A stretch of DNA of 64,000 nucleotides from positions 558,001 to 622,000 of the forward strand of contig NC_011297.1 of assembly GCF_000020965.1 (NCBI RefSeq), given 5' to 3'. Both the position numbers and the translations under genes were made by a program. The notes beneath the pieces were generated by a model. It had not been told where the DNA came from. It did not search any database and saw nothing but the letters and a program-made list of their open reading frames with translations. The stretch is from Dictyoglomus thermophilum H-6-12 (GTDB lineage: Bacteria; Dictyoglomota; Dictyoglomia; Dictyoglomales; Dictyoglomaceae). Of this stretch, positions 46,336 to 48,526 are shown piece after piece (position 1 is the stretch's first letter; each line of letters opens with the position of its first letter).

Positions 46336-46365
46336 TTTACAAAAAAGTATTCAGTTTAATATAAT
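46336..46365 (+). promoter_or_regulatory. Promoter of a small RNA or MATE leader
   Basis: TTTACA (46336-46341) and a consensus TATAAT (46360-46365) are separated by 18 bases on the plus strand. The predicted transcript begins near 46372, just before a C-rich segment and an intrinsic terminator. Confidence 0.65.
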
Positions 46366-46371
46366 AATATC

Positions 46372-46431
46372 TACACACCCCCCTCCTTACGAGAGGCTGG
46401 AGGAATAAACAAAACTCCAGCCTCTCTTTTT
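46372..46431 (+). ncRNA. Candidate small RNA (about 60 nt) with anti-Shine-Dalgarno motif, or transcription attenuator
   Basis: Between a consensus promoter and a perfect 12-base terminator stem (46391-46402 with 46415-46426, then five Ts) lies only about 19 bases, including CCCCCCTCCTTA, which contains CCTCCTT, the sequence of the 16S rRNA 3' end that pairs with AAGGAGG. No plus-strand gene lies upstream to use the terminator. It could be a free small RNA acting on ribosome sites, like C-rich small RNAs, or an attenuator for the MATE gene: CCTCC at 46382-46386 can pair with GGAGG at 46399-46403 and break the terminator stem. Confidence 0.55.
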
Positions 46432-46472
46432 GATGTAGTTAAAATATTTATTTGTTGGAGGAAAAAGCAAAG

Positions 46473-47850
46473 ATGCTTGAGGATGAACGGAGCAAAATTG
46501 GAAGAAGGGTTCTTTTTCTTGCTATTCCAGTTTTGCTGGAGAATTTATTTCAACTTGTATTTAGCTTTGTAGATATGATCTTTGTAGGTTTTTTAGGGGC
46601 TACAGCTCTTGCTGCAGTGGGTTTGGGAATGCAGATTATCAATGTGGTTCTTGCTGTGGTTTCAGCTCTTACTGTTGGTACGATGGTTACGATAGCCTAT
46701 AGTATTGGGGCAGGAAACTATGAGGATGCTGTAAAATATCTTGAAAATTCAATGATTTTAGGTTTTTACCTTTCAATTTTGATCCTACTATTTGGGTTAT
46801 TTGGAAGTGATAGGCTCTTGCAAATCTTAGGTGCAAAAGAAGATCTTTTTATTAATGCCTCTCTATATTTAAAATATATTCTTATTCCTGGCTTTCTAAT
46901 TGTGTATATGTCCATAATCTCTTCTGCTTTAAGAGGAGCAGGAGATACTAAAACTCCTTTGTATGCGAGTATAATTTCTAATACTTCGAACATCTTTTTG
47001 GATTATATTTTGGTTTTTGGAAAGTTTGGTTTTCCTAAGATGGGGGTTGCTGGTGCTGCTTTGGCTACAAGTTTATCTCGACTATTAGGTACAATTTTTC
47101 TTTTATATATCATTATATAAAAGAAGTAATCTCTTAAAATATAAATTCTTTTATAACTTTATTCTTGAAAGGAGTTATAGTTTACAAATATTAAGAATAG
47201 GAGTACCAACATCTTTTGAGCAGCTTTTCTTTAACATAGGAGCTCTTGTTTATGCTACGGTTGTTTTAAGCTTGGGTACTAAGGTGTATGCAGCTCATAG
47301 AATAGCTTTAAATGTTGAATCTTTGTCTTTTCAACCTGGGTTTGCTTTTGGGGTTGCAGCAACAACTCTTGTTGGACAATATAAGGGAGCGAAAGAAGAC
47401 AATTTGGCAAGATTGGCTTCAGTTGAGGCTTGGAAAAGGGCTATTATATTCATGGGTAGTGTAGGAGTTTTTCTTTTTTTATTTCCAGAATATTTAGTTC
47501 AGATATTTACTAGAGATGTGGAAGTGGTTAAATATGCTTCCTCGGTGTTGAGAATTATTGCTGTAATTCAACCCCTTCTTGCGACAGCAAATGTTATGTC
47601 TGGATCTTTGAGAGGGGCTGGTTTCTCTAAAATTCCTATGGTGATAAGTGGTGTAGGTATGTGGTTTGTTAGAATACCTTTGGCATATTTTTTGGCTATA
47701 AAGATGAATTTAGGGCTTGTGGGTGCATGGATTGCTATGTCTACAGATATTTCATTGAAGGCTATTGCTAATTACTATATGTTTATAGTTAAAGGCTATT
47801 ATAAAAAGGAAAGTTTTAAGGTTAAGTATGAAGAAGTTATTAGTAATTGA
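46473..47850 (+). pseudogene. MATE-family efflux protein, frameshifted
   Basis: A MATE multidrug/cation efflux protein split by one frame change. The first part, from the ATG at 46473, carries about six helices (ILAIPVLLENLFQLVFSFVDMIFVG-like start, RGAGDTKTPLYASIISN) and stops at 47120. The second frame continues at once with KRSNLLKYKFFYNFILERSYSLQILRIGVPTSFEQLFFN and runs to 47850. The switch lies in ATATAAAAG near 47112-47122. A single-base indel, a sequencing error or programmed frameshifting would all explain it. A TTG start at 46452 overlaps the GGAGGA site and is less likely. Its end overlaps lipB by 23 bases. Confidence 0.8.
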
Positions 47851-48526
47851 CTTTAGAGAAAAAATAAAATATGAAGACGCATGGGATCTTCAAAAAAAGC
47901 TCCACGATTTAAGAGTAAAAGATACTATTTATGATACTTTGATACTTTTAGAGCACTTTCCAGTAATAACTTTAGGAAAGTTTGGGGATGAGAAAAATTT
48001 GCTTAAGACAAAAGAGGAACTAAAAAGTATGGGAATAGATTTTATAAGAGTTGATAGAGGAGGAGATATTACTTATCATGGACCTTCACAGCTTGTGGGG
48101 TATTTTATTTTTAAAGTTGATGGGGTTAAGAATTTTGTCTTAAAAGTTGAGAAGTCTATTATAAATGTACTTCATGAGTATGGTATAGAAGCCAAAGAAA
48201 GTATAGAGTATCCAGGAGTATGGGTAGAAGATAGAAAAATAACTGCTATAGGTATTGCTATAAAGAAAAGAGTTTCATATCATGGATTTGCCCTAAATGT
48301 AAATAATGATTTGGCTCCATTCTCTTATATAATTCCCTGTGGTTTAAAGGATAAAAAAGTTACTTCAATTTTAAAAGAGGCAAACTTTTCTCCTCCCATG
48401 GAAGATGTTAAGAGAAAAGTTTGCCTCTCGGTAGTTAAAGAATTTGGCTTTGATTCTTTTATGGTATTTAATTTTTCTTCTTGTAAGGAGCTGTCCAATT
48501 TTGGTATGCTTTTGGAGGACCTATAA
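47828..48526 (+). CDS. lipB: Octanoyltransferase
   Basis: It transfers octanoyl groups from acyl carrier protein to lipoyl domains. The family motif RGGDITYHGPSQLVGY, the catalytic lysine in RKITAIGIAI and the catalytic cysteine in IIPCGL are all present. The 232-residue length is normal. The start overlaps the end of the MATE gene, with a weak AAGG upstream, so the two are likely co-transcribed. A perfect 17-base inverted repeat near the 3' end probably serves the convergent gene. Confidence 0.92.
   Translation: MKKLLVIDFREKIKYEDAWDLQKKLHDLRVKDTIYDTLILLEHFPVITLGKFGDEKNLLKTKEELKSMGIDFIRVDRGGDITYHGPSQLVGYFIFKVDGVKNFVLKVEKSIINVLHEYGIEAKESIEYPGVWVEDRKITAIGIAIKKRVSYHGFALNVNNDLAPFSYIIPCGLKDKKVTSILKEANFSPPMEDVKRKVCLSVVKEFGFDSFMVFNFSSCKELSNFGMLLEDL
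48376..48428 (-). terminator. Minus-strand terminator inside lipB
   Basis: AGAGGCAAACTTTTCTC (48376-48392) and its exact complement (48412-48428) form a 17-base stem with a 19-base loop. On the minus strand the stem ends in CTCTTTTAAAATT, 40 bases beyond the stop of the floA-cluster hypothetical gene. It is wholly inside the lipB coding sequence. Confidence 0.65.

Follow-up and report, generated by a model that had tools for sequence, protein, structure and literature searches.

A compact unit of promoter, C-rich segment and intrinsic terminator in Dictyoglomus thermophilum H-6-12 probably serves the MATE-lipB operon of the Dictyoglomota as its 5′ leader and as a transcription attenuator; from comparison of related sequences, we put the probability of this reading at about 0.72. 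The layout of an intrinsic attenuator can be read from the DNA itself: a promoter, then an intrinsic terminator, then the gene, with no second promoter. Within a thermophile phylum that branches deeply, the unit makes a clean candidate for a cis-regulatory RNA, matches no known family, and is unusually small, with about 18 nt ahead of the terminator, 14 of which are invariant. All positions given here are on the + strand of the window, the whole 64,000-nucleotide stretch of DNA that was analysed. The host genome is one contig of 1,959,987 bases; that of the sister species has 1,855,560 bases.

Architecture of the proposed leader

The unit opens with a sigma-70-type promoter (46336..46365) in which TTTACA (46336-46341) and TATAAT (46360-46365) are separated by an 18-nt spacer. 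It matches the consensus at 11 of 12 positions and was the top scorer among 18 promoter-like sites in 5 kb. Judged by the spacing from the -10 hexamer, transcription is predicted to start at the A at 46373, 8 nt past that hexamer. The C-rich 5′ end, ACACCCCCCTCCTT (46375..46388), follows almost at once and includes a C6 tract (46378-46383) and CCTCC (46382-46386). Its CCTCCTT had been described as an anti-Shine-Dalgarno (anti-SD) core, and it does match that of the organism's own 16S rRNA (GGCTGGATCACCTCCTTT).

The terminator hairpin (46391..46426) consists of two arms, 46391-46402 and 46415-46426, that form 12 perfect pairs around a 12-nt loop; GGCTGG (46395-46400) is part of the 5′ arm, and GGAGG lies at 46399-46403. 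The hairpin is followed by the T-run TTTTT (46427..46431), four of whose Ts are invariant across five genomes. Its folding energy was -24.9 kcal/mol (z = -5.96), which none of 200 shuffles equalled. Only four strong perfect-stem terminators were found in the whole 64 kb, and among these the leader terminator has the most G-C pairs and is joint longest in stem length. It was not listed by our terminator scan because that scan, with a loop limit of 8, leaves out a loop of this size. The RNA released on termination is predicted to be about 59 nt long. No + strand gene lies directly upstream. In all of these respects the first-pass annotation, which had proposed a consensus promoter, a C-rich CCTCCTT stretch and a perfect 12-base terminator with five Ts, and had seen no upstream plus-strand gene, was accurate to the base.

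Conservation and genomic context

Relatives were located by DNA search, and the complete unit (promoter, C-rich end and terminator) was found in five genomes belonging to one family and two genera: the host, its sister species, and three genomes of the sister genus. Two other genomes lacked the unit; their MATE copies are partial and their assemblies fragmented. All five genomes have the promoter in the same place, and in the three from the sister genus it reads TTGACA/TATAAT, a 12/12 match to consensus. The distance from the -10 hexamer to the A of ACACCC ranges from 5 to 9 nt. Both the 14 nt of ACACCCCCCTCCTT and the GGCTGG of the terminator arm are unchanged in 5/5 genomes. As a yardstick, the longest invariant run in an alignment of lipB from the same genomes was 8 nt; fourfold sites in that gene were 28-63% identical, 49 of 229 third positions were invariant, and third codon positions compared between genera were 45-51% identical. 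The terminator stem showed a different kind of conservation, with compensatory double changes in 5 of the 12 pairs and 98% of cells paired, as against 38-62% in control versions slid out of register. Within this sample of five sequences from a single family, the alignments demonstrate that promoter, C-rich end and terminator have been kept together as one unit and that selection acts on the terminator helix. The first-pass annotation had expected conservation of the stem alone if its idea of a functional unit were wrong; because the C-rich segment and the promoter are conserved besides the stem, that idea survives.

Each of the five units lies directly 5′ of MATE, with lipB next in line. The host MATE efflux transporter gene (46473..47850), preceded by a Shine-Dalgarno (SD) GGAGG at 46457..46461 that is not conserved in the sister genus, is frameshifted, as had been reported, with the change of frame near 47,100; the four relatives that have the whole gene carry it unbroken. 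The second gene, lipB (octanoyltransferase, 47828..48526), is intact and overlaps the MATE stop, and the gene order is the same in the four relatives. Across the five genomes the MATE/lipB junction is either an overlap or a gap of a few bases. Genes upstream of the unit, on the other hand, vary between genera: an aldo/keto reductase, a T-box with a trpB-like gene, or an ABC binding protein. Gene order in these genomes establishes that the unit stays with MATE-lipB. Conserved partnership with MATE in all five genomes also places the pump and the octanoyltransferase under one leader.

The MATE start codon follows the T-run by 20, 28, 32, 41 and 50 nt in the five genomes, and promoter-like matches 3′ of the C-tract reached just 6-9 of 12 at best. 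In the two genomes with 20-28 nt there is no space for a second promoter, and expression of MATE-lipB should therefore need read-through of the terminator. It is this required read-through that leads us to read the unit as a cis-acting transcription attenuator. The broken MATE of the host counts against this reading; its frameshift may be a true mutation or an error in the sequence. Persistence of the leader ahead of a broken MATE is perhaps explained by the intact lipB downstream, for which the leader may still be needed in this genome.

The first-pass annotation had left the choice between a small RNA and an attenuator, and its alternative deserves to be weighed here. Small RNAs such as RsaE and RoxS carry an unpaired C-rich stretch complementary to SD sequences and a 3′ terminator, and a trans-acting RNA of about 59 nt that blocks SDs in their manner would have much the same anatomy as our leader: an unpaired 5′ seed where transcription starts, the seed invariant and the terminator covarying, with CCUCCUU complementary to strong SDs. 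The leader differs from them in having no sequence or structure family match, including any Rfam small RNA, in its fixed place before MATE-lipB, and in showing no signs of targets. Short SD matches of a C-rich motif are generic, and 14-mer matches (<=2 mismatches, both strands and hence complementary sites too) were fewer than for a reversed control, at 17 versus 29 in the host and 13 versus 33 in the sister species; the RsaE-like role suggested earlier gains no positive support. The constant location directly before MATE-lipB despite differing upstream genes, and the intervals in some genomes that are too short to hold another promoter, likewise favor the attenuator, and we regard a purely trans-acting role as unlikely. 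Once released, the attenuated RNA could possibly act in trans as well, giving the leader a dual role.

Proposed mechanism

The proposed sequence of events is as follows: RNA polymerase would start at, or just ahead of, ACACCCCCCUCCUU. By default the operon would be off, with the 12-bp hairpin forming, transcription ending at the U-run, and an RNA of about 59 nt being released. Under an inducing condition, something would bind the invariant C-rich 5′ end along with the invariant GGCUGG of the terminator 5′ arm; the terminator hairpin would then be blocked and transcription would run on into MATE and lipB. What we infer from the sequences is where transcription starts, that it terminates in vivo, that read-through is regulated, and that the C-rich strand has a part in antitermination. 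As the predicted RNA begins either with the invariant bases or some 2 nt ahead of them, there would be no separate aptamer domain upstream. Our first guess at the signal is a small molecule or ion that the nascent RNA binds; our second is an RNA-binding protein attached to the C-rich end. If found, the signal would reveal the substrate of the MATE pump and the reason for its sharing an operon with lipoate synthesis, and the leader illustrates a way in which so minimal an RNA might govern termination at about 75 °C.

The alternative hairpin between CCTCC and GGAGG proposed in the first-pass annotation has five pairs in the host, but shrinks to three or four pairs in the other genomes. A CC-U-CC/GG-CU-GG pairing, by comparison, is possible in 5/5 leaders; both of its strands are invariant, hence it leaves no covariation signal. 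As a hypothesis, antiterminator pairing of this form would explain both invariant blocks. Folding energies give it no support: the 5′ part alone was not clearly better folded than shuffles (z from -1.7 to +0.6), and at 73 °C alternative 5′ structures reached 0 to -3 kcal/mol, with the terminator at about -10 to -12. Such a pairing, if acting, would need help from a ligand or protein. We also considered, and rejected, a duplex between the C-rich segment and the MATE SD, since it amounts to 5 bp in two species and the sister genus has no GGAGG.

A partial, unregulated terminator would look much like the attenuator we propose. On that explanation the hairpin does no more than reduce expression of MATE-lipB, and the role of the C-rich end is in early transcription or RNA stability; the unremarkable folding of the 5′ part and the lack of a known partner or ligand would agree with it. 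Simple leakiness, however, leaves the 14 nt and GGCTGG, invariant over two genera, to be accounted for, and these call for sequence-specific recognition. We consider it decidedly improbable.

Antibiotic-induced attenuators such as that of vmlR also place a terminator between a promoter and a resistance-type gene (PMC9226507). They differ from the leader in having an upstream small ORF, and the lack of one here argues against a ribosome-stalling mechanism of the vmlR type. The host leader (46373-46431) contains no ATG, GTG or TTG start codon, making a leader peptide unlikely; an ATG in the leader of the sister species is not conserved.

In each of the five genomes the C6 tract falls inside the opening ~11 nt of the predicted RNA, a position that brings to mind a nucleotide sensor in which pausing or slippage near the start alters how the terminator acts. 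An attenuator that works by reiterative transcription is found in the Bacillus subtilis pyrG leader, where slippage occurs on the G run at +1. Like pyrG, the leader carries a homopolymer run close to +1 with the potential to pair with the terminator 5′ arm, in this case C-rich RNA with a G-rich arm; unlike it, the tract is C rather than G and lies off +1, and the operon genes are unrelated and include none for nucleotide metabolism. A pyrG-like sensor is scarcely credible on this evidence.

Both invariant blocks, CCUCCUU and (GC)GGCUGG(A), recur with their order swapped in the tail of 16S rRNA, GUGCGGCUGGAUCACCUCCUUU, where they fall within the last 22 bases, and CC-U-CC could pair with GG-CU-GG in the leader RNA and in the 16S tail alike. 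By shuffling, the chance of finding the second block was 0.5-3% per leader, for a resemblance that was noticed post hoc in leaders that are related. If the leader mimicked the 3′ end of 16S rRNA, a tail-binding factor (a ribosome-assembly protein, for example Era, or a drug that acts on the tail) could bind the nascent leader, and the pump operon would open whenever free 16S ends ran short or were blocked. Because the observation was post hoc and the leaders are related, we give this mimicry low weight and think it very improbable.

Searches for related elements

Scanning of the window and its relatives against Rfam returned no relevant family, and no known riboswitch aptamer matched the leader. 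The one T-box match (Rfam RF00230; L003:1654-1919, genome G004) belongs to a neighboring gene: it precedes a trpB-like gene that is divergent from the MATE leader. We found nothing relevant in the literature on Dictyoglomus regulatory RNAs.

A known system that works along much the same outline is the guanidine-IV (GGAM-1/mepA) riboswitch with its Gd4v variant, which likewise forms a short leader before MATE genes, with a 3′ hairpin that is an intrinsic terminator and a proposed role as an ON switch (PMC7736828, PMC9788692). These riboswitches have two hairpins linked by a pseudoknot, the terminator being the second, in constructs of 92-95 nt (PMC7736828, PMC9788692). The leader has one hairpin with about 18 nt ahead of it and no pseudoknot, is about two thirds of that length or less, conserves other bases, has lipB as its operon partner, and occurs in Dictyoglomota only; nor was there a relevant match at E up to 10 in the Rfam library as used. 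Membership was rejected on structure, leaving a variant of this class a next to negligible prospect.

A scan of 84,980 species for CACCCCCCTCCTTN{3,9}GGCNGG hit 69 places, of which the only real one (L082) is the same Dictyoglomota element as in genome G005. Matches in Limnohabitans and other Comamonadaceae came from another hairpin, the self-complementary CACCCCCC/GGGGGGTG; the remainder appear to be chance or Prevotellaceae repeats. In 386 genomes, full-strength matches to a covariance model were confined to the family, and the weaker ones inspected were plain terminators or chance. A strict pattern with both terminator arms, run on the 386 genomes, recovered the five family elements and 11 matches elsewhere; the 11 were judged to be chance from the matched sequence alone, and a further 10 matches were viral. 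The closest MATE homologues from outside the phylum carried no such element in their leaders. Taken together, these searches turned up no member beyond the family.

Two other arrangements came to light during these searches. In the unrelated genome G312 (L034:1480-1580), a terminator is preceded by ACATCCCCTCCTTA, which is complementary to TAAGGAGGATGT, the SD of the next gene, an independent arrangement of C-rich segment, terminator and SD. In Limnohabitans and other Comamonadaceae (L059, L064, L065, L067, L068, L070, L071, L074 and similar), a conserved CACCCCCCTCCTTnnnGGCGGGGGGTG hairpin with a T-run sits just before a likely gene start (MQLPSL...) and is possibly another leader terminator.
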